Assembly: GCA_011772275.1 (NCBI GenBank)
Contig: WVZU01000353.1
Coordinates: forward strand, 1 to 11,013
Source: Planctomycetales bacterium
GTDB lineage: Bacteria > Planctomycetota > Planctomycetia > Pirellulales > UBA7805
Length of the DNA stretch: 11,013 nt
Direction: 5' to 3'
Part shown: positions 93 through 11,013 of the stretch, piece after piece
How positions within the stretch are numbered: the first letter of the stretch is position 1
Layout: every line of letters starts with the position of its first letter
Program-made: the position numbers and the translations under genes
The notes under the pieces: model-generated
What the model saw: the letters and a program-made list of their open reading frames with translations, nothing else
Databases searched by the model: none
What the model was told of the DNA's origin: nothing

Positions 93-3000
93 CTACTTCC
101 AGAACTGCAGCCGGCGTTTCCACCAGGGTTCAGGGGCCGGCGGCAGGGCCTCTGGGCGCGGGGGTACTATCGCCTGGCGAACCAGGGGGCGTTCTTCGGC
201 CAGCGGCTCGTCAGCCAGCGGAATGTGACGTTCCAGAAAATCGGGCCAGTAGCCTTCCAGCAACCGCAGGCAGTCGGCCAGCTGACCGCTTTCCAGCGTA
301 AAGTGGGCACGGGTCAGCAGCCGTGAGAGTTCGGTTCGTTCGTTTTCGCTGAACCGCAGGTCGGAGACCGTAATCTCGTCGATCCAGACGGTGCCCGCCC
401 CCTGCATGTCGAAGCGGACGTGCAGGTTGGTTATGTCGCTAAATGGCAGATCGTCCGTAGAGAACTCGAACAGTTTCCACGTCCCGTTCGGCCGCGCGAC
501 ACCGTGTCGATAGTATTCTTGCTGGCCATGTGTACCTCCCACGGCCAGCCGCAGGGGGCCTTGGAAGTCAGGGCTGGCCTTCAACCATACGGTGAATGCC
601 AGGCGGCCCGTACGGGGGGCGGCAAAGGAATTGCTGATCAACGAGGCGGTCGGGCCCTGGCCGCGAAACTGCAAGCAGGCTTGACCAACATGCTGCTCCT
701 GCAGGTCCGTGGTCACCGCCGCCTGGGGGTCCCCAATCAGCTTCCAGCCGGGGACGTTTCCTGCAACCGCCGGCGCTTCAAACCCGGCATTTTCCAAGCC
801 CTCCATCGGCCGCTTTTCGTCCAGCGAGGCGGCCCTGGCCACCAGACGTTGCAGCCGCCTGCGTAACTGCGCCTGGAACTGATCGGGCACGGTCACCTGC
901 ACGTCCGCCACCTGGACCTGTGCCGCAGGGAACCTCACGGCCAGAAAATCGTAACTTTCCAGCGTTACCGACCAGTTTCCGTCCGCCGGCTGTTCCACCT
1001 GTCGCAGGCCGCTCAGCTCTTCCACCGCAACGGCCCCCGGGGTAACGATCCGCATCGTGCACTGGCAAGGCCAGGGGGCATCGTTGACCAAGTAAAGGTA
1101 GGTGTGCTGCTGGCGAGACAACTGCCGCAGTTTTAACGGCTGGTATTTGCCCGGCACGGGCTGGAATTTTTGAGCGGGCAGTCGGCGATAGGCGATCACG
1201 ATGTCGCGCAACTGTTCTTCCTGGCCCAAGGGCAGGAGCTGGCCTCCGTAAAGAATGTGAGCGGTATCCAGATCGGCCAGTGCGCGGACCACGCGCCGGC
1301 GGCTGGAGCGGCCGGCGGCTGTCAAATGGGGTGACAAAACGATGTGCGTGCGGTCCGGCCCGAAGGGACTCTGCTGGTCGAACGATTTCAAGCGGAGGGA
1401 GGTGGCGCCGATCGACTGCAGGACCCCGACGTGGCCGCCGGCCGCCGCCTGGCCCAACAGTTCCTCCGAGGAAGGCAGTTGCTGCACCACCGCTCGACGC
1501 TCCAGCGGGAAATCGGGCGTGACCGAGGCGGGCTGGAAAAGGATGATGCTGGGCGAGGCCGCCTGGCCGGTCGCGTAGAGTTGCGGATTGATGCCAATGC
1601 CCCATAGTCCTTCGAGCGGCTTGGCGCGTGGCGGCAGGGCCGGGCGGAGCATGCGTTGAATCTCCGGACTGTCCAACATCGGGGACAGCGAGAGATACAA
1701 TTTGCCCTCCAGGCCTGCCCGCTGTAGTTCATCGGTCAGCAGGCCATGAAACTGGCGGAGACGGTAAGCCCGCCAGTCGAGCCACTTTTTCAGGAGGGGG
1801 CTTTCCATCAGCAGGCGATGATCACCCGGCGGAAGTGCCACACCCGCTTCCTGAGCGAACTGTTGCCGCGTGCGCGGGTCCGCCGGCCACAGCGGCCCAG
1901 GAAAGAAGGCAAAAGAGTGTTCCGATGTGCCGATCGCCAGTCCGTCAAACGACGGGTGATGACGGTAACGGTCCACCAGTTCCCGGACGACGGCAACCAT
2001 GGCCTGCTGGACCAGTGGGTGGAGGGGATTGTAAGAGGCCGACACGCCGTCGGGTCCGACCGCTGCCACACCGGCGCTGTCCGGGCCTCCCTGCCGCAAC
2101 ACGGCTTCCAGCTGGGGCAGTGGCGTAGAGAACTGGAGGGCGGGGATCAAGCGCAGTCCTTGGCGATCACAGAGACGAAACAGGAGTTCCAGGACATCTT
2201 TGCGTTGCGGGTCCTGCCCGCTGGCAAAAAATATTCCTGTGTCGTAGCGCGGCGTCGGTTCCAGCAGCCGGGTGGGGTAGATTGCACTACCGTCCGCAGC
2301 GACCGCCAGGACCAACGAATTGTAGCCGGCATATTTCAGGTATTGCACCAGACGCGTGGCGGCGTCGTAGAAGGTCAGCCAGTCGTCCATGCTGCGCTGG
2401 CTCCACGGATCGAAGGCCTCCTGTGCGGAAAAGTTTTCCGGAAACAAGGGGCGCTGCATGAACGCGGCCAGGGTCCGGCCTTCGTCCAATATGCCGGCCG
2501 GCATGGCGCTGGGCAGCCCGGTGGTCGGCGAGCCGGCCAGGTTGAGCCCGGCCACGGCGACTGCCTTGGGGCCCAGGACGCGGATCTTGCCATGCACGGC
2601 GTTCGCGTCGTCGCGCTGGTTGGTGATCAGCACCACCGGCTGGCGGGTCTTGGGCCAGAAGACGATCCGCTGTCGGCCCAGCGCCGGCTCGAAATCGGCC
2701 GCCTCGGGCGGCACATAGATTCCCGAGTCCAACCCTACCGGCAAGACACTTCCCGCCGCATTGGGCTCCAGAATGCTGATCCCCATCGCCTGCGGAACAT
2801 GCGTCGGATATGCCACGTCCAGAATGTGCGGTTGGCCTGGATGGCTGATGTTCAACGGATAGGCCGTCCAGCTGGCCTCCGACTGGCTGGACCCAGGTCC
2901 GATCCGGACCATCGTTCCCAGCTGGGGATGTTCCCAGTTGGTAACGTCACCGTGTTGCAGCGGGCCGCCGGACAGGCCGGGCAGCCTGGGAATGCGGGCC

Positions 3001-3971
3001 ACTTTTTTCCACCACGGTTCGGCCGGATTGATCTCGTCGATCACCTTGGAAGGCGGTTGCCGCGGTTCGTCCTCCGCTGGATCCGGCAGGTTGGGACGAA
3101 CGACCACGAACTGCACCTTGCGTCGCGCGGCGACCTGTTGGCGATTGCGGAAGGGGTTGCCGGGGTGGAACTGCCGGCGGGCGTTGGGCAAAAAGGCCTC
3201 GATTTCGAGATCGTAGACGCCTTCTTTTTGCGGAGCGGGAATTTCCAGGCTGAGGGGCGTGGCGATGCCCCCGACGACGTCCGCCTGCTGCTGACCGTCC
3301 CAGAGAGAATCGCCGCCGCGGGCCGGAACCAGCTGGGTCTGGATGCGCAACACGCCCTCCGCAAGATCGCCAACCAGGTGCGGCGACAGTTCCAGCTGCA
3401 ATTTTTCCTCCGGCGCCAGGACCAGGGAAGGGTTGCCGACGCGGACACGCAACTTGTCACCCGGCGCCCGTCGGACCAGCAACCGATTCTGCTGCTTGTC
3501 CAGATTCGCACTAAACAATTCGTCCCGCAATTGCAGGAGGGGAATTTCAAAAGTTTGCGGCCGATCTTGCGAGGGCCCGGTGAGCAAGGAGACGGTCAAG
3601 TGGCCGTCCAGATTGGATTGAACGGCTATGTCAACGCCGTCATAGCGGTGCGGGCTGCGCTGGAGGATTTCCAGCTGGCCGTTGTCGATCCACATCGAAC
3701 CCGGTTCGTCCGGCTCGATGCCCAGCGCCTGATGTTCAGTGATTTCCCCCGGTTCCACCCGGATCGTGCCCCGCCAGATTTGTTCCTCGCCACCACCCCA
3801 GGCCACGCGGAGGCGCAATGTCTGCGCATCGGCGCAGCACGCCAGACAGTTCAGCAACAGCCAAACCGACACGAACAGCGAGCGCTGTGCGGAGCCGCGC
3901 AGAGATCGCCGGCTTGTCGCAAAGGCCGTTGGCCGTGGACTTTTTGTTGCAAGCGCAGGATCGGCGCGCAC
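93..3971 (-). CDS. Large secreted family-10 glycosylhydrolase-like protein with C-terminal carbohydrate-binding-like domain
   Basis: A 1292-residue exported protein. Residues 1 to about 50 form a long signal peptide: Arg-rich start, a hydrophobic run around 32 to 45, and an A-D-A cleavage site before Q50. The first half (about 50 to 480) is beta-rich and unassigned. About residues 490 to 880 look like the TIM barrel of the GHL10 (DUF187-type) glycosidase-like family: LKYAGYNSLVL, a strand ending in RLIPALQF, the helix-rich HPLVQQAMVAVVRELVDRY, then the strand GLAIGTSEH near 683. About 1055 to 1200 (ENAGFE to WIDEITVSDL) resembles a jelly-roll carbohydrate-binding domain, followed by a helical tail. 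The motif EPWWK occurs near residue 320 and again at the extreme C terminus. The start is GTG, with GGGAGG about 10 bases upstream. A role in extracytoplasmic polysaccharide binding or cleavage is inferred. I cannot identify catalytic acids with confidence, so activity is unproven. Confidence 0.85.
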   Translation of the reverse strand: MRADPALATKSPRPTAFATSRRSLRGSAQRSLFVSVWLLLNCLACCADAQTLRLRVAWGGGEEQIWRGTIRVEPGEITEHQALGIEPDEPGSMWIDNGQLEILQRSPHRYDGVDIAVQSNLDGHLTVSLLTGPSQDRPQTFEIPLLQLRDELFSANLDKQQNRLLVRRAPGDKLRVRVGNPSLVLAPEEKLQLELSPHLVGDLAEGVLRIQTQLVPARGGDSLWDGQQQADVVGGIATPLSLEIPAPQKEGVYDLEIEAFLPNARRQFHPGNPFRNRQQVAARRKVQFVVVRPNLPDPAEDEPRQPPSKVIDEINPAEPWWKKVARIPRLPGLSGGPLQHGDVTNWEHPQLGTMVRIGPGSSQSEASWTAYPLNISHPGQPHILDVAYPTHVPQAMGISILEPNAAGSVLPVGLDSGIYVPPEAADFEPALGRQRIVFWPKTRQPVVLITNQRDDANAVHGKIRVLGPKAVAVAGLNLAGSPTTGLPSAMPAGILDEGRTLAAFMQRPLFPENFSAQEAFDPWSQRSMDDWLTFYDAATRLVQYLKYAGYNSLVLAVAADGSAIYPTRLLEPTPRYDTGIFFASGQDPQRKDVLELLFRLCDRQGLRLIPALQFSTPLPQLEAVLRQGGPDSAGVAAVGPDGVSASYNPLHPLVQQAMVAVVRELVDRYRHHPSFDGLAIGTSEHSFAFFPGPLWPADPRTRQQFAQEAGVALPPGDHRLLMESPLLKKWLDWRAYRLRQFHGLLTDELQRAGLEGKLYLSLSPMLDSPEIQRMLRPALPPRAKPLEGLWGIGINPQLYATGQAASPSIILFQPASVTPDFPLERRAVVQQLPSSEELLGQAAAGGHVGVLQSIGATSLRLKSFDQQSPFGPDRTHIVLSPHLTAAGRSSRRRVVRALADLDTAHILYGGQLLPLGQEEQLRDIVIAYRRLPAQKFQPVPGKYQPLKLRQLSRQQHTYLYLVNDAPWPCQCTMRIVTPGAVAVEELSGLRQVEQPADGNWSVTLESYDFLAVRFPAAQVQVADVQVTVPDQFQAQLRRRLQRLVARAASLDEKRPMEGLENAGFEAPAVAGNVPGWKLIGDPQAAVTTDLQEQHVGQACLQFRGQGPTASLISNSFAAPRTGRLAFTVWLKASPDFQGPLRLAVGGTHGQQEYYRHGVARPNGTWKLFEFSTDDLPFSDITNLHVRFDMQGAGTVWIDEITVSDLRFSENERTELSRLLTRAHFTLESGQLADCLRLLEGYWPDFLERHIPLADEPLAEERPLVRQAIVPPRPEALPPAPEPWWKRRLQFWK

Positions 3972-4328: not shown

Positions 4329-5351
4329 TCAGCGGCCGGCAGGCGACGTCCCTGCGGACGGTGGCTGGGACCTGGCATAGGACGCAAAGGCCCGGGCGAC
4401 CTGGCCTTCCTGATGATCTCCGCGGTGCAGCCACACCCGGTAATGCAGCGTAACCGACTCGCCGCGCGGCAGGTGGTAGTCGCCCTGTTTCTTGCCGGCC
4501 GTAAAGTCTCGCTGGCCGAATGGGTTGGCGGCAAACAGGCCGTAGGTGCGGACGTGCCAGTAGGTTGGAAACCGAAAGCTACGGGGATGATTGAAAATGG
4601 CGATACCCACCCGCTGGCCGTCGACCGGACCGTGGTAATCGACCCAGGCGGCCGGTTTACCCCAAGCCTGCTTGTCCCGGTGGCCTTCACTGTTGACGAT
4701 TTGCCCGCCCAGCTGGGCGTCGACTTTCATGGTGCCGGCCACGCGGAGACCAAAACTACCCTCCTTCGTATCGCCCAGATGCACGGGTTGGTCAACGGCG
4801 GTGAGGGTGATGGTAAAGTCGATCGAGCGATGATCCTTGCCCGCCTCGAACCGCAGGGCCCGTCGGTCTTGCAGGTGCCGCTTTCCCTGCGGATCGAGCC
4901 AGTCATTTTCGGTGACGATCGTATCACCCTGGATCTTGATAAACCTCTTGTGCTTGACCGTCGGACTCCCCTGGCGCTCGTGCCAGAATGAAAGTCCGTC
5001 TACGTCCCCGTGGGTGAACCACAGCGAGCGATGATGAGGGTGGTCTTTTTGCTCGGAAGGCCCCGCAGCCATCGGGTAGGCCCGCGTCATGGGTTTGCCG
5101 GTGGGGCCGATCAGTGGCCAAAGAATCGGTTTGTTGCCGCTGCGGATGTGGTATTTTGTAAACAGCTGTCCGTCGACCTTTACCGTCGCACCCTCGGCGC
5201 TCTTTTCGATCGTGATTTCCCCTGCCGCCAGGTGCGAAGTGGCCAGGCTGCCTATCAGGCAGAGGAGGCGGTCGATCCGCAGGAGGCCTGTTTTGGTTCT
5301 GGCATGCTGGTGCCGTGCCAATGAGCGCGATTTTTCGCGGAGGGCCCACAT
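4329..5351 (-). CDS. Secreted DUF6807 (PmoA-like) family protein
   Basis: A 340-residue protein of the family first deposited as 'methane oxygenase PmoA' and now DUF6807. The old name is misleading: these proteins are soluble or exported and common in planctomycetes and Bacteroidetes, often near sugar-related genes. The family signature DHPHHRSLW is at residues 103-111, followed by FTHGDVDGLSFWHE, with the late motif YHGPVDG and an NHP near the family's usual place. Residues 1-44 look like a signal peptide: basic start, LLCLIGSLA hydrophobic core, cleavage near HLAAG. The frame is open upstream to 5609, but that extension overlaps the HIT gene and is not family-like. I chose the ATG at 5351 because GGAAAG sits 7 bases upstream. 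The function of the family is not settled; a part in uptake or breakdown of sugar derivatives is inference. Confidence 0.85.
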   Translation of the reverse strand: MWALREKSRSLARHQHARTKTGLLRIDRLLCLIGSLATSHLAAGEITIEKSAEGATVKVDGQLFTKYHIRSGNKPILWPLIGPTGKPMTRAYPMAAGPSEQKDHPHHRSLWFTHGDVDGLSFWHERQGSPTVKHKRFIKIQGDTIVTENDWLDPQGKRHLQDRRALRFEAGKDHRSIDFTITLTAVDQPVHLGDTKEGSFGLRVAGTMKVDAQLGGQIVNSEGHRDKQAWGKPAAWVDYHGPVDGQRVGIAIFNHPRSFRFPTYWHVRTYGLFAANPFGQRDFTAGKKQGDYHLPRGESVTLHYRVWLHRGDHQEGQVARAFASYARSQPPSAGTSPAGR

Positions 5352-5488
5352 GGTCGCTTTCCAGGTTGGGGGGATGGAGGGGAAAAGGCGGCGGCCGTTT
5401 TGTTGCAGATGCGGCTGGTGGATTCTGTCTGTTTCGATTGCCAGATTGCGCGAGGGGTCAACTTGTTGCGGTAGCTGCTGGCCGTACC

Positions 5489-5504
5489 GCCGGCTGTTGC
5501 CGGC
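5489..5504 (-). repeat. Small perfect hairpin 3' of the HIT gene
   Basis: GCCGGC, a four-base loop, and GCCGGC again form a six-base-pair GC-only stem starting 34 bases past the HIT stop codon on the minus strand. No U-run follows, so a terminator is possible but not shown. The rest of the 187-base gap to the DUF6807 start holds nothing recognisable. Confidence 0.3.
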
Positions 5505-5538
5505 CCCTCGGTGCTCGGTTGCGGGGAGCGAGGACAAT

Positions 5539-5883
5539 TCAACCGGGGGGCCAGGTAAGTTGCCGTCCGCCCAGCAGGTGCAGGTGCAAATGGGGTATTT
5601 CCTGGCCACCTTGCGGCCCGCAATTCAGCACGACGCGATACCCTTCTTCCAGATTGCACTGTGCCGCCACATCCCGCGCCACTTTTACAAGGTGGCCCAA
5701 CAAGGGGACATCCTCTGCACGGGTTTCGCTCAGCGACCGGATTTCCTGCCGGGGAATGACCAGCACATGGGTGGGTGCCTGGGGGGAAACATCGCGAAAT
5801 GCCAGGCAAAGTTCGTCTTCGTACACCAAATCCGCGGGAATTTCGCCATCGATGATTTTCTTAAAGATCGTTTTGTCGCTCAT
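5539..5883 (-). CDS. hinT: HIT-family (histidine triad) nucleotide-binding hydrolase, HinT type
   Basis: A 114-residue cytoplasmic protein close in pattern to E. coli HinT, a purine nucleoside phosphoramidase that hydrolyses adenosine 5'-phosphoramidates. It begins in the standard way (TIFKKIIDGEIPAD), continues through LAFRDVSPQAPTHVLVIP, and ends with the HIT active site GGQEIPHLHLHLLGGRQ, in which H98, H100 and H102 form the triad. Its length matches the family. The frame is open further upstream to 6072, but that extension is a basic, non-family sequence. The ATG at 5883 has a strong GGGAGG about 7 bases upstream and puts the family start at residue 1. It ends 187 bases before the DUF6807 gene and starts 252 bases after the Trm112-like stop, so it may have its own promoter. 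The physiological substrate cannot be read from sequence. Confidence 0.95.
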   Translation of the reverse strand: MSDKTIFKKIIDGEIPADLVYEDELCLAFRDVSPQAPTHVLVIPRQEIRSLSETRAEDVPLLGHLVKVARDVAAQCNLEEGYRVVLNCGPQGGQEIPHLHLHLLGGRQLTWPPG

Positions 5884-6094
5884 GACCACCCTCCCACAAG
5901 CCCCGCTCGACCAACCCTTCTCGCCGTGCCGATCAATCCCCCGCCTCGCGCTTTTACGAGACTTTAAATTTTTCCTTTGCCGCCATGGCGCAGGTCGCCA
6001 AGACTTTCGGCGCTGGCAGGAATTGCCGAAACGCTTGGGCTTCTTCGCTGCCAGCACCTTGCGCGTTGACAAACCACGCGTCCCCCATTGGCTC

Positions 6095-6135: not shown

Positions 6136-6408
6136 CTACTGCCCCACTTCCTCCTCAAAGCTTTCCAAGGGGATCGCCTCTTCGACCAGGAGGATCGGGA
6201 TCCCATCCACGATGGGATACAGTACGCGACCGTCTTCGCGGATGAGGCCAGCGTCCAATTTGTGTTCTACGGGCAGGTCCTGCGCATTGTGCAGCGTACC
6301 CGCTTCAATCGCCGCGTTCAGCTTGTCCACAACTTGTGGGTCGGCCATCTTCAGGGGCAGGTGGTTTTGCGGGCATACGAGGATATCCAACAGTTCTTTG
6401 TTCAACAT
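6136..6408 (-). CDS. Trm112-like (UPF0434/YcaR type) small protein
   Basis: A 90-residue protein recognised from its ends: MLNKELLDILVCP at the start and EDGRVLYPIVDGIPILL near the C terminus, the two conserved blocks of the bacterial Trm112-like family. In archaea and eukaryotes Trm112 is a zinc-binding activator of methyltransferases; the bacterial role is poorly defined. Here only one cysteine (C12) remains. The second position of the usual CPxC is N15, and the position expected for a later cysteine, before EDGR, carries no Cys. An insert of about 25 residues separates the two blocks, compared with the 60-residue YcaR. GGAG lies 7 bases before the ATG. It starts 120 bases after the membrane-protein gene, a gap in which I see nothing else. 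Confidence 0.85.
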   Translation of the reverse strand: MLNKELLDILVCPQNHLPLKMADPQVVDKLNAAIEAGTLHNAQDLPVEHKLDAGLIREDGRVLYPIVDGIPILLVEEAIPLESFEEEVGQ

Positions 6409-6528: not shown

Positions 6529-7260
6529 TCAGCGCGGCGCCACGTTTTCCTGGTAGTTCATGATACGCCAAAATCCGGTGGTCGTAACGGGGTTGTCGGT
6601 CCGCTGAGCGCGGATTCGCACATAGAGGGTGGTTTGCTGGTTGTCCGCCGAACGGGCGACGGCAAACAGATTGACGAATTGATCGACCCCATCTCGATGA
6701 ATGTGTTCTTGGCTGCGGTGATGTTGGATACGAGCGCGGGGGCCGAGGGCGGCCAGGGTTTTTACCAGTTTTTGTTGTTGGAAGCGTTGCAAACGGTTTT
6801 TCTCGGCTGGAGTCCCCCGCACGGCTGGCTGGTTATCGTCCGGTTCCGGTCTGGTTGGAGAGTCGGACATCGCAGCCAAGGCCTTGGCAGTCTGGCCGTT
6901 GGCCAGGAACTGGAGCCACTGCTGGCTGACGGCGATGGCCTGTTGGTTGAGACGATGCTGGCGGAGGTAGTGACGAGTGGGTGCCCAGCTGGCAAAGACG
7001 GTCGCGAGGACCAGCCCGGTGGTGGCCAGTCGGTATGCGGAGGAGGGTTGGGCAGCGTGTTGGAGTCGGATCAGGGCCAGGCTGGCCACCAGGAGACCCA
7101 GCGCGGCGGTAAACCAGAGGTAGGGGTGGAGCAGGGCGGTAGCCGAGCCGACCCCGGTCAGGAGGGCGGCGATTGCCCACCCGCTGACACGATGAGCGGG
7201 GATGTTGGGATCCGCGTGGTCGCTGAAGACCGGCGTGGGCGATTCCGCTTCACTGGTCAA
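6529..7260 (-). CDS. Small membrane protein, three predicted membrane segments; probable TTG start
   Basis: Not assigned to a named family with confidence. With the chosen start it has 243 residues: a short polar N terminus, hydrophobic segments at about 27-45, 47-66 and 78-94 in the spacing seen in DUF4190-like proteins, then a roughly 150-residue soluble tail. The tail begins with a helix (QQWLQFLANGQTAKALAAM) and ends in a beta-rich part closing with FWRIMNYQEN. The frame is open to 7350, but no in-frame ATG fits. The TTG at 7260 has GAGGG exactly 8 bases upstream and overlaps the cvpA stop codon by 11 bases, suggesting translational coupling. It is probably co-expressed with cvpA and the GspE-like gene. 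A function linked to the envelope is inferred from membrane segments and position only. Confidence 0.75.
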   Translation of the reverse strand: MTSEAESPTPVFSDHADPNIPAHRVSGWAIAALLTGVGSATALLHPYLWFTAALGLLVASLALIRLQHAAQPSSAYRLATTGLVLATVFASWAPTRHYLRQHRLNQQAIAVSQQWLQFLANGQTAKALAAMSDSPTRPEPDDNQPAVRGTPAEKNRLQRFQQQKLVKTLAALGPRARIQHHRSQEHIHRDGVDQFVNLFAVARSADNQQTTLYVRIRAQRTDNPVTTTGFWRIMNYQENVAPR

Positions 7261-7918
7261 CTTCCGGTCCCTCTTCGATGACACCGCTACCGAACTGGCG
7301 GCGGACCCGCAGTTCTTCCGTCGTCGCAAAGTTTGCTCGGCGGGTACCATATTTTAAAATAAACGTCCCTTCCGGATCGAACACGTTTGTTTGGGATTCG
7401 TCCTGGCGGTCGGCTTTACCCAGGCTGCGAAAAGAGAGGTTGTGCACGAACGCCAGCCACTGGCGGTCTGGTGCCAGCGAAAAGAACATCCGCGATTCGG
7501 GCGTTTGTTGGAAGGTGCCTCCAAATCCGTTTCGGGGAAGGGGGGCCACGTGCAACGACATCATCAGCAGGCAGACCAGCAGCCAGCCGGTCCAGACCGA
7601 CAACAACATACCGCCCGGAACATCGACCCATTTATGAAAGCGGACTTTGACTTGGGAAGCGAATTCCGTCAGGGTGCGGAAGAGGATGAAGAGGCCGGTG
7701 AAGAGCCCCCAAAAGACGACCAGGTCGATGATGTAGGAAAACGTCGGCATTTTGGAATCCAGCCAGGTGGCGGCCGGTTCAAAATAATTTGTGGCCAGCA
7801 CGGCTGCGGTCAGGACATTAAAGAAGGTCAGCAGGGCATGCCACAATCCTTCTTTGCCGACAAAGGCGACGCACAGCGCGATGATCAGCAGCGGACCGAC
7901 GTACAACAAGAGGCTCAT
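7250..7918 (-). CDS. CvpA-family membrane protein
   Basis: A 222-residue inner-membrane protein with the CvpA (colicin V production) fold pattern: four hydrophobic segments at about 3-20, 27-46, 61-82 and 102-121. These include the family-like IIDLVVFWGLFTGLFILF and the glycine-containing entry to the fourth helix (VPGGMLLSVWTGWLLV). CvpA proteins are linked to envelope homeostasis and, in E. coli, colicin V export; their molecular role is unclear. After the fourth segment it carries an extra 100-residue tail, longer than in typical 160-residue members. The ATG has GGGAAG 6 bases upstream and lies 18 bases after the GspE-like stop codon, and its 3' end overlaps the next gene, so co-transcription is likely. 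The family call is from topology and motif style rather than from invariant residues. Confidence 0.8.
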   Translation of the reverse strand: MSLLLYVGPLLIIALCVAFVGKEGLWHALLTFFNVLTAAVLATNYFEPAATWLDSKMPTFSYIIDLVVFWGLFTGLFILFRTLTEFASQVKVRFHKWVDVPGGMLLSVWTGWLLVCLLMMSLHVAPLPRNGFGGTFQQTPESRMFFSLAPDRQWLAFVHNLSFRSLGKADRQDESQTNVFDPEGTFILKYGTRRANFATTEELRVRRQFGSGVIEEGPEVDQ

Positions 7919-7936: not shown

Positions 7937-9700
7937 TCAGCTCTTCAACACCCGTTGCAGTTCCTCCAGCGAGGTAACTCCTCGGACCGCCAAGAGAATT
8001 CCCTGCTGCTGTTCCGACTGCAACCCTGCTTGACGCGCGGCCTTGCGCAGTAGTTGCAGTTCGGGCTTGGCTTGCAATATTTTGCGAATCTGGTCATCGA
8101 CCCGCAGTAATTCGAAAATGGCCGTTCGCCCATAGTAGCCGACGCCATTGCAGCGGGCGCACACCTTGGGGGGCTCGGTGGGGGGCCGATAAAAATGCGG
8201 GACCTGTTCCGGTTTGAGGCCTAACTTGGCCAGCAACTGGGGCTGCGGGGTGTACTCTGCGCGGCATTCTTCGCACAATTTGCGGATCAAGCGTTGATGC
8301 AACACAGCCTGGATGGCTTCGGCAAAGGGTTGGCGAGGCACTTTCAGCACCAGCACCCGCAAGAGGGCTTCGGCGGCATCTTTGGCCTGGATGGTCGTGA
8401 TGATCAGCCGCTCGTCGATCGCCTGCTGGCACAAGATCTGGGCCGAAGCGGCATCGACGATGTCACGACAGAGAATGATATCGGGCTGCGTGCGGCCGAC
8501 GGTTGGCAGGATGGCAGCCGGGGTCTGCCCGGCCGCTCGGCTGTATGTCTTCACATCAACGCTATCCAGTTCGGGATAACGCGCGTCGACATCCTCCACG
8601 CTCACAAAATCCCGCAAGAGGCGGTCGACTTGCATCACACTTCGTGTGAGCGTGGTCGACAAGCCACCGGAGGGGAGCGCCGAAAACAAGATCATCCCGC
8701 GTTCACCGCTCAACAATTCCTGCACTTGGGCTTCGAGTTTGGCCGACATGCCCAGGTCCTGCAGGGTGTCGAATTGTGGCGGAGCGACTTTGAACTGCAG
8801 CAACACCCGTGGACCGGCAGGGGTGGCCTGGACGTTCAGCATCGTGGGGATCGAGTCCTCGCCGGCCTGCATGGCAAACCGGCCGCTGACCTTGGCCTGG
8901 GGGGCATCGTTCTGGACGCCCGCCACGGTTTGGAAGACCTGCAGAAGTTGATCGCCAATCTCGCGCGGTTGCGGGTTGTGGGCCAGCCAGACACCGTCAA
9001 TCAAATAACGCACGGCCACCGACTCGCCGTAATCCAACAACACGGAGTCGGCGCGGTGCTTTAGGGCGTGGTCCAGCAACGTGCGTGCCGGGGTATAGCC
9101 GGGCAGCTGCCGAGCGGCGATGAGCAGCGCCTGGTTGGCCTGTTCGTCCGTGCCGGTGGCCCGGAGTTGCAGAGCGGGTCCTTTTTCGTGGCTGGCCACC
9201 GCTTCCGCCTCGATGCGGATGCCGATCTTTTTCAGCTTTTCCGCGCACCAGAACCGCAGGTGTGCGGGCGTGAGGATCCTTTCCTGTTCTTCGACCTGCA
9301 AATTGCGGTAGGCGAAGATGTAGAGCCCCAGGGGGACAAGGTAGGCCAGCAGCATGAGGAGGTATCCCAGCAGGAAACTGGTGAGGACCCAGATCAGCAA
9401 AAAGGCCCCTGCGAAGGTGCCGACCACGACGGGGATCCAGAGGTGCAGTCTTTTGAGCCGCAGGATCTGCATATCCTGGCTGACCCAATCGGTAGTGCGG
9501 ACCCAGACGGCGAACAGCAGCCAGCAGGCCACGATCTTCTTGGTGCTGAAGTAAAACCCAGGTCCCCGAAAGTAATCGTGATCCAACGGGTAGTAGGGCC
9601 AAGGGTCCACCGCGGCGGGATTTTCCTGAGCGAACACGCTTTGCGCCATCAGCGACAGGGATGTCAATGAGCCCAAGGCGGTCAGGAAGGTGCGCATCAT
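7937..9700 (-). CDS. Membrane-anchored GspE/PilB-like protein with degenerate ATPase motifs
   Basis: A 587-residue protein with a secretion-ATPase (GspE/PilB) domain on a membrane anchor. Residues 1-25 resemble a signal peptide (cut near SVFAQ); membrane segments follow at about 55-68, 87-106 and 109-131, with basic RLKR between the first two, which would place the rest in the cytoplasm. Residues from about 205 follow GspE order: the ADSVLLDYGESVAVRYLIDGV block, a Walker A region near 340-350, a Walker B region near 407-416, a His-box region near 435-442, then CEEC (about 475) and CARCNGVGYYGR (about 514), the zinc-binding part. Key residues are missing: L347 replaces the Walker A lysine (GGLSTT), D413 replaces the Walker B glutamate (ILCRDIVD), and Q438 replaces the His-box histidine. 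ATP hydrolysis is therefore unlikely. The frame is intact, arguing against a decayed gene. It follows pilT by 10 bases with no clear ribosome-binding site; two ATG codons are adjacent at 9700 and 9697. Confidence 0.9.
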   Translation of the reverse strand: MMRTFLTALGSLTSLSLMAQSVFAQENPAAVDPWPYYPLDHDYFRGPGFYFSTKKIVACWLLFAVWVRTTDWVSQDMQILRLKRLHLWIPVVVGTFAGAFLLIWVLTSFLLGYLLMLLAYLVPLGLYIFAYRNLQVEEQERILTPAHLRFWCAEKLKKIGIRIEAEAVASHEKGPALQLRATGTDEQANQALLIAARQLPGYTPARTLLDHALKHRADSVLLDYGESVAVRYLIDGVWLAHNPQPREIGDQLLQVFQTVAGVQNDAPQAKVSGRFAMQAGEDSIPTMLNVQATPAGPRVLLQFKVAPPQFDTLQDLGMSAKLEAQVQELLSGERGMILFSALPSGGLSTTLTRSVMQVDRLLRDFVSVEDVDARYPELDSVDVKTYSRAAGQTPAAILPTVGRTQPDIILCRDIVDAASAQILCQQAIDERLIITTIQAKDAAEALLRVLVLKVPRQPFAEAIQAVLHQRLIRKLCEECRAEYTPQPQLLAKLGLKPEQVPHFYRPPTEPPKVCARCNGVGYYGRTAIFELLRVDDQIRKILQAKPELQLLRKAARQAGLQSEQQQGILLAVRGVTSLEELQRVLKS

Positions 9701-9710
9701 CAGTGGAATT

Positions 9711-10805
9711 TCAGATTAAGCCGCCTTGGGAAACGCCGATACCCTTGAGTGCCATCTTCAGCTGCTGGCGGTTGGGCGAGACGTCGAACGCGGTCTCCTG
9801 ATCGATCAGTTCTTTTTCGACCAGGTCCTTCAAGCTCATATTGAAGTCCTGCATGCCCTCCTGCGCACCCTGCCGGATTGCGTCGCCCAGCTTTTCGTCT
9901 TCCTCTTCCAGGATCAACTTGCGAACGGTGCTGTTGAACGTCATGATTTCGACAGTGGGCACGCGGCCCACTTCCTTGTCGATCGCTTTGACCAGCTTTT
10001 GCGCCATGATCGCCACCATATTGGCGGCGATGGCACTGCGCAAGCCGCTGTGCATATTGGCGGGAAACAGGTCCAGGATGCGATTAATGACGGTGGCCGC
10101 GTTGGACGCGTGAATCGTGCCAAACACGAGGTGCCCCGTTTCGGCGGCGTGAATGGCCGTGGCAAACGTTTCCTGATCGCGCATTTCGCCCACCAGCATC
10201 ACATCCGGATCCTCGCGGACTGCATGCTTCATGCCGATCTCAAAATCCTTGACGTCGACACCAATCTCGCGTTGGTTGATCAGGCATTTGTCTTCCCGGA
10301 ACATGAATTCGATCGGATCTTCCAGCGTGAGGATATGTTTGCGATAGTGCGCGTTGATCCAGTTCAGCATCGAGGCGATCGTGGTGCTCTTCCCCGACCC
10401 GGTGACCCCGGCAATCAGGATCAGACCTTGGTGAAACGAGCAGAGTTTTTCGATTTGGGGAGGCAGGTGCAGGCCAGCGAAGTCGGGAATCGTGTTATTG
10501 ACCCGGCGAGCGACCAGGCCCACATGTCCCATTTGGGTCAGCAGGTTGACGCGGAACCGCCAGGTCTCGCCATCCACGTCCAGCATGTGCGCAAAATCCG
10601 CCCCCCCGTCGCGCTCGAAAACCTCCTGGTTGCGTTGATCCAGCAGCGGCAGGCACAGCCGGCGCATCTCTCGCTCGTCGATCGGCTCACGTTTCATGGC
10701 CCGCAGCACGCCGCCGACGCGGACGTAGGGCGGGTTGCCCACCTTGAGATGCAAATCGCTGGCCTCCAGCTTGACGGCCGCTCGGAAGATCTTGTCGATC
10801 TCCAT
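9711..10805 (-). CDS. pilT: Twitching-motility retraction ATPase PilT
   Basis: A 364-residue cytoplasmic hexameric ATPase that powers retraction of type IV pili by returning pilins to the inner membrane. All motifs are present: N-terminal EASDLHLKVG, Walker A GVTGSGKST with K139, Asp box TLEDPIEF (160-167), Walker B DVMLVGEMRD (201-210), His box GHLVFGTIHASNA with H232, and the PilT-style C-terminal GAQEGMQDFNMSLKDLV. Length is close to the usual 345-370. The frame is open to 10937, but that region overlaps hisF. The ATG at 10805 gives the family start (MEIDKIF); its ribosome-binding site is weak (AGGGC). A GTG at 10847 would add 14 residues and cannot be excluded. It lies 64 bases after hisF and 10 bases before the GspE-like gene. 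No pilin or other pilus gene is in the window. Confidence 0.96.
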   Translation of the reverse strand: MEIDKIFRAAVKLEASDLHLKVGNPPYVRVGGVLRAMKREPIDEREMRRLCLPLLDQRNQEVFERDGGADFAHMLDVDGETWRFRVNLLTQMGHVGLVARRVNNTIPDFAGLHLPPQIEKLCSFHQGLILIAGVTGSGKSTTIASMLNWINAHYRKHILTLEDPIEFMFREDKCLINQREIGVDVKDFEIGMKHAVREDPDVMLVGEMRDQETFATAIHAAETGHLVFGTIHASNAATVINRILDLFPANMHSGLRSAIAANMVAIMAQKLVKAIDKEVGRVPTVEIMTFNSTVRKLILEEEDEKLGDAIRQGAQEGMQDFNMSLKDLVEKELIDQETAFDVSPNRQQLKMALKGIGVSQGGLI

Positions 10806-10869
10806 GCCGTTGCCCTGCCGCTCGTGCTTCTCGCCCTGCTCGCTCACCTGCGTTGACCGTCCTGATAAC

Positions 10870-11013
10870 CTAAAGTCGGACCGGGATCCCCTGTTCGCGC
10901 ATGAATTGCTTGGTTTCCCGAATCGTGTACTGGCCAAAATGAAAGATACTGGCGGCCAGGGCCGCGTCCGCTTTGCCCCGCAAGATCGCGTCTGCCAGAT
11001 GAGCGGGCTGGCC
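10870..11013 (-). CDS. hisF: Imidazole glycerol phosphate synthase subunit HisF, C-terminal end (partial)
   Basis: The last 47 codons and the TAG stop of hisF; the gene continues beyond the right edge. HisF is the cyclase subunit that, with the HisH glutaminase, makes imidazole glycerol phosphate and AICAR in histidine synthesis. The fragment shows the eighth strand and last helix of the (beta/alpha)8 barrel: [18 protein letters not shown], then [16 protein letters not shown], ending in REQGIPVRL, the typical HisF terminus. It sits on the same strand as pilT, 64 bases upstream of it, so pilT may be read from a transcript that includes hisF. Confidence 0.95.

Follow-up and report, generated by a model that had tools for sequence, protein, structure and literature searches.

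A PilB/GspE-type protein without the catalytic residues of a pilus ATPase, encoded next to PilT in planctomycetes

The window analysed here, a stretch of 11,013 nucleotides from a planctomycete of the order Pirellulales (contig WVZU01000353.1, assembly GCA_011772275.1), encodes a pseudo-ATPase of the PilB/GspE fold with a predicted N-terminal membrane domain (positions 7937..9700, on the minus strand, as are all genes of the window discussed below). Because the Walker A Lys, the catalytic Glu, the arginine fingers and both histidines of the His box are gone, this protein is likely unable to hydrolyse ATP. From sequence and gene order we favour the reading, with a probability of about one half, that it would be anchored in the membrane and serve, without hydrolysis of its own, as an adaptor for the intact PilT-family motor whose gene lies 10 bases upstream. 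It belongs to a large group under purifying selection that has lost most catalytic residues and kept the zinc cysteines and the predicted fold, and in which the Glu of the ASP box mostly stays. We call such copies dead, and those with Lys, Glu and His intact.

Residues lost and residues retained

The gene reads as 587 amino acids from an ATG, the intact frame of 587 codons recognised in the initial annotation. Its product holds a T2SSE domain (PF00437) and has a predicted PilB-like fold. It scores below the NCBIfam equivalog cutoffs for GspE and PilB (168.1 of 630.25 and 145.9 of 675.65), and is not a PilT/PilU protein by TIGR01420 (30.8, cutoff 319.1). Residues 1-24 (9629..9700) form a signal-peptide-like helix, judging from hydropathy, the structural model (helix at 2-24) and the alignment, whose consensus ends the helix with A-x-A-Q. 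Behind it, residues 53-135 (9296..9544) make up a predicted membrane part, absent from the initial annotation, with three helices at 53-80, 85-105 and 109-135 indicated by hydropathy, the model and conservation in the family.

The substitutions first read from the sequence alone all recur in our alignment. The former Walker A motif, residues 341-350 (ALPSGGLSTT, 8651..8680), has Leu347 in place of Lys. The former Walker B motif with the catalytic Glu, residues 406-417 (PDIILCRDIVDA, 8450..8485), has Asp413 for the Glu and Val415 for the next conserved Arg. The former His box, residues 431-442 (RLIITTIQAKDA, 8375..8410), has Gln438 for its His, and a second conserved His is also replaced (Arg431). 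The apparent lack of arginine fingers holds as well: columns 287 and 302 (8795..8842), which we take to be the fingers of PilB-type ATPases, contain Met and Gln. The claim that the catalytic residues of all three motifs are lost stands; the nucleotide site has nevertheless not lost every residue, since Glu369, the Mg-binding Glu of the ASP box, remains. The CxxC cysteines are indeed retained, at 476, 479, 514 and 517 (8150..8275), and such a tetra-cysteine zinc motif is a feature of the PilB/GspE clade, according to the part of PMC5424180 available to us.

Two sets of reference rows were defined independently of the motifs. All 25 distinct membrane-domain rows from other orders of the same class keep Lys347, Glu413, His438, His431, Arg415, Arg287 and Arg302. 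Lys, Glu and His are kept in 67 of the 69 distinct rows that lack the membrane domain and score below 275 bits; the two exceptions, L093 and L194, are planctomycete paralogues. Positions 415, 287 and 302 are Arg in 67/67 canonical and 34/34 intact membrane-domain rows, which were picked for having Lys, Glu and His, so that only columns other than those of Lys, Glu and His are independent. The 34 rows include L027, titled Candidatus Kuenenia stuttgartiensis. We rejected it as evidence from another class: its gene matches one from a same-order genome (G398, L247) exactly, and the contig is likely misplaced.

Dead rows were divided into a Pirellulales side (54) and a Phycisphaerae side (26), named after the record titles of named relatives. 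These titles are applied loosely (Planctomycetales or Planctomycetaceae stands on some dead copies: L014, L020, L025), and the remaining genomes were assigned through their kinship code, or through their locus group and position in the tree. The Glu is kept in 10/54 and 5/26 rows and His438 in 2/54 and 1/26, respectively, and Arg415 is mostly gone on both sides. The altered motifs are themselves conserved, with Leu347 in 48/54 and Arg438 in 39/54 of the Pirellulales-side membrane-domain rows. L030, on a contig titled Actinomycetes bacterium, clusters with the Phycisphaerae-side dead copies and is likely mislabelled.

Spread of the dead state and number of losses

The protein search gave 295 matches, 120 of which were listed; they were chosen by words shared with the query, are hence biased toward it, and include the window's own protein (P0002). 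The Walker A Lys is gone in all 120 (Leu 113, Val 5, Phe 1, Met 1), Lys, Glu and His are missing together in 108, and the four zinc cysteines are kept in 120. Within the order, a family match with an E value of at most 1e-88 occurs in 192 of 196 genomes, a count that takes in intact paralogues. Motifs were read in 107 distinct same-order sequences: 86 without the Lys (86/105 of those readable), 1 that keeps the Lys and lacks Glu and His, 18 fully intact and 2 cut. The membrane domain is present in 61 of the 87 dead copies and absent from 26, of which 4 have their start cut off. Many proteins of the dead family are named type II secretory ATPase, GspE or TadA in the sources, which calls for caution with such annotations.

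Genomes with family code f107 account for all 18 intact sequences (intact membrane-domain copies at L244-L266 and L161:1-1500). By BLAST, f107 intact copies are about 45-62% identical to L161 and/or L027 and about 25-31% identical to two dead copies, and a dead copy is co-resident in at least 9 of the f107 genomes that have an intact one. PilT was not seen in the short upstream stretch fetched for them. We read these sequences, from their similarities, as a separate paralogue. The initial annotation had named intact motifs in close relatives as a refutation of its claim, and for the order this check speaks in its favour: the same-order orthologues are dead as well, and intact orthologues occur in other orders of the class (25/25).

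It had also proposed selection for a non-hydrolysing role, which is supported by the order-wide dead state, the conservation of the altered motifs and the ratios of nonsynonymous to synonymous divergence (dN/dS), which are far below 1 among dead relatives. This ratio is 0.05-0.22 for close pairs of dead copies and about 0.03-0.21 for intact pairs of the family (Nei-Gojobori counts, pairs 70-97% identical, dS under 2.2); many dS values are near or above 1, which makes the ratios rough, and the window gene is in no pair. When the partner PilTs are 75-80% identical, core identity stands at 77% among intact ATPase pairs (n=5), as against 46% among dead pairs of the Pirellulales side (n=245) and 58% among those of the Phycisphaerae side (n=4), in pairs that share sequences and are not independent. 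After the loss of catalysis the core drifts faster.

The unconstrained family tree (99 rows, motif columns excluded) gathers all dead copies in a single clade with one change (98 in the SH-like approximate likelihood ratio test), which argues against two losses. The tree of the partner PilTs groups those of the Pirellulales side with PilTs that have intact partners and come from other orders of the class, apart from those of the Phycisphaerae side. A constraint that unites every PilT with a dead partner lowers the log likelihood by 69 units (approximately unbiased test, p 0.0009; three rows were dropped, one long outgroup row and two duplicates). After removal from the family tree of L191, L192, L194 and L093, four fast rows with no membrane domain, holding Planctomycetia together beats the free search by 29.6 in likelihood (p 0.845). 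L027 is present in both family trees, the trees are of a quick kind, and the groups tested were set by motif state or kinship, but testing followed inspection of the trees. A single loss for all dead copies was set aside, being rejected by the PilT tree and not favoured once the four fast rows are dropped. We take the single dead clade of the first tree as the probable result of long-branch attraction; that catalysis was lost at least twice is the better reading of these trees, not a proof. The existence of intact orthologues in other orders suggests a live motor as the ancestor. The four fast rows form a dead GspE-like group (L191:4998-6380, L192:4857-6224, L194:4944-6305, L093:8026-9450), possibly a third loss of catalysis. 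The genomes of L191 and L192 additionally hold an intact membrane-domain copy.

The PilT partner and the proposed role

The gene 10 nt upstream (9711..10937) encodes a PilT/PilU-family ATPase with intact motifs (TIGR01420, 395.7 bits, cutoff 319.1). Its open reading frame (ORF) opens with TTG, and the true start is likely an ATG at about 10805. Across 32 aligned partner PilTs, the window's included, the catalytic Lys, Glu and His are invariant. Downstream, the gene at 7250..7918, starting 18 nt after the pseudo-ATPase gene, encodes a CvpA-like (Colicin V production) protein (PF02674, 43.1 bits, cutoff 29.3). We surveyed the neighbourhoods of 77 membrane-domain copies with long flanks (76 distinct), clustering proteins by blastp, which remote cases may escape. 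Among copies with room for the gene, PilT lies upstream of 44/50 dead and 12/24 intact ones, and the CvpA-like gene downstream of 44/50 dead and 21/25 intact ones. In 5 of the 6 dead copies counted as lacking the latter, such an ORF lies nearby, beyond our distance rule. Pfam detects CvpA in 9 of 10 tested downstream genes, 6 of them above the cutoff.

The nearest pair known to us for comparison is that of the retraction ATPases PilT and PilU, with a PilT that is inactive either naturally or by artificial change. According to the parts of PMC6762196 and PMC6821130 available to us, variants of Vibrio cholerae PilT in which ATP binding or hydrolysis is abolished retain PilU-dependent function, PilU makes no contribution to retraction without PilT, and both form independent homohexamers that may associate in a complex. 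There too, as far as these texts go, two pilus ATPase genes adjoin and an inactive protein can be needed for the action of the other. However, both proteins of that pair are of the PilT type and normally active, whereas the dead protein of the window is of the PilB/GspE type, predicted to be membrane-anchored, and dead throughout most of the order. With the PilB, PilF and GspE ATPases it shares the two-lobe core fold (predicted here), the zinc module and PF00437, but unlike them it lacks the catalytic residues and arginine fingers and has the predicted membrane domain. The intact membrane-domain orthologues of other orders of the class (family codes f5 and f6) also come close; they have the N-terminal domain, mostly a CvpA-like gene downstream and sometimes PilT upstream, but keep the catalytic residues in 25/25.

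By analogy with V. cholerae, the dead protein would be the required adaptor, PilT the motor, and the helices the part that fixes the complex. The three predicted N-terminal helices would keep the body of the protein in the cytoplasm, where it may assemble at the inner membrane into a ring, or part of one, of its own, perhaps together with the CvpA-like protein. Such a ring would hold the PilT hexamer, or couple it to a pilus base whose genes lie elsewhere in the genome, and catalysis would have become dispensable, probably twice, once PilT did the work. The initial annotation had named a structural adaptor, a regulator of PilT and a platform for pilus assembly as possible roles; among these, the neighbouring PilT and the predicted helices lean toward a PilT adaptor. 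A broader proposal, which we hold more tentatively, is that planctomycetes have a two-part pilus-type motor in which a live PilT ring works on a dead one, descended from PilB/GspE and embedded in the membrane for good. Dead rings of this kind would form a natural class of structural pilus 'ATPase', arisen at least twice by loss of catalysis after PilT took over. Our search of the literature on degenerate or pseudo pilus ATPases and planctomycete pili (titles and starts of abstracts, open-licence papers, among the matches listed) found nothing on this family. Since other orders of the class retain intact orthologues, exchanging live and dead forms would make it possible to ask what a pilus motor does besides burning ATP.

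Several observations weigh against the adaptor. In 22 of the 83 dead same-order copies whose N-terminus is uncut the membrane domain is missing, which makes the anchor dispensable in some lineages. Among the 87 dead copies, the Glu is kept in 19, the His in 3 and the Lys in 1. Adjacency to PilT is not specific to the dead state, given its presence beside half of the intact copies, and 6/50 dead copies lack PilT upstream under our distance rule; one of these is the second copy of a tandem, and for another, L208, a PilT match lies immediately upstream. Genes for a pilin, PilC or a secretin were not recognised in the window, and the link to pili is one of family membership. Finally, the conservation of the ASP-box Glu leaves room for nucleotide binding.

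This last point bears on a rather unlikely alternative, that the protein is a non-hydrolysing regulator or sensor that binds ATP or another nucleotide through its glycine loop and ASP-box Glu and toggles PilT. Gly346 is invariant in the two dead groups (54/54 and 26/26) and Glu369 is mostly retained (47/54 and 25/26), but Lys347 is replaced in all 54 and 26 rows, mostly by hydrophobic residues, the Arg after the Glu is mostly gone, and the core drifts fast. A separate machine of the envelope, built from PilT, the dead ATPase and the CvpA-like protein and unrelated to pili, for example for transport or membrane remodelling, is unlikely. The lack of a recognised pilin or secretin gene beside them, the frequent hisF-like and CvpA-like neighbours and the PilB/GspE and T2SSF genes at other loci of the genome would fit such a module; against it, both proteins fall by sequence in pilus and secretion motor families, and we know of no case in which such a motor acts other than in pili, secretion or conjugation. 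Rotary ATPases combine catalytic and non-catalytic subunits in one ring, and the two genes 10 nt apart, with the invariant catalytic residues of PilT, might encode a ring of this kind. We consider such a mixed ring improbable because the dead protein has lost both arginine fingers, expected to complete the site of the neighbouring subunit; PilT and PilU, moreover, each work as a homohexamer of their own, the two possibly joined in a complex (PMC6821130, in the part available). A decaying gene or an assembly error would fit the faster drift relative to PilT and is very improbable given the open frames and the Lys missing in the 119 other listed homologues as well, which refutes a sequencing error or local mutation, and the dN/dS among dead relatives rules out a pseudogene for the family.

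Other loci and neighbouring genes

Elsewhere, the genome of the window has further PilB/GspE-type, PilT-type, T2SSF and secretin genes, and a pilus base may be available to the dead ATPase in the same cell, unlinked. Two adjacent PilT-like ORFs of 382 and 474 amino acids are found at G000:C150:8202-9823. A search of the phylum with the PilT-type protein matched 379 of 392 genomes. Among 20 such loci fetched, several of which stop at a contig end, 6 are followed by a dead copy with the membrane domain and 1 by an intact copy that lacks it. On these numbers we discarded this protein as a marker of the pair and drew no co-occurrence statistic. In all 11 same-class genomes searched in which the ATPase has no PilT beside it, the close PilT type is encoded at another place (58-64% identity).

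Dead copies stand in tandem, two by two, at L164:4782-8130, L171:4476-8795 and L271:1162-4467; the second copy of L164 has the Lys and lacks Glu and His. The CvpA-like gene of the window is followed by that of an uncharacterised protein (6529..7350) without a Pfam match, whose homology cluster covers 19 loci, the window included, and which lies downstream in part of the relatives. A hisF-like gene, named from its sequence, is upstream in 30 loci. Further downstream, the window encodes a Trm112-like protein (6136-6408), a HIT-domain protein (5539-6072), a DUF6807 protein (4329-5609) and a protein of 1292 amino acids with a GHL10 glycosyl-hydrolase-like domain (93-3971).
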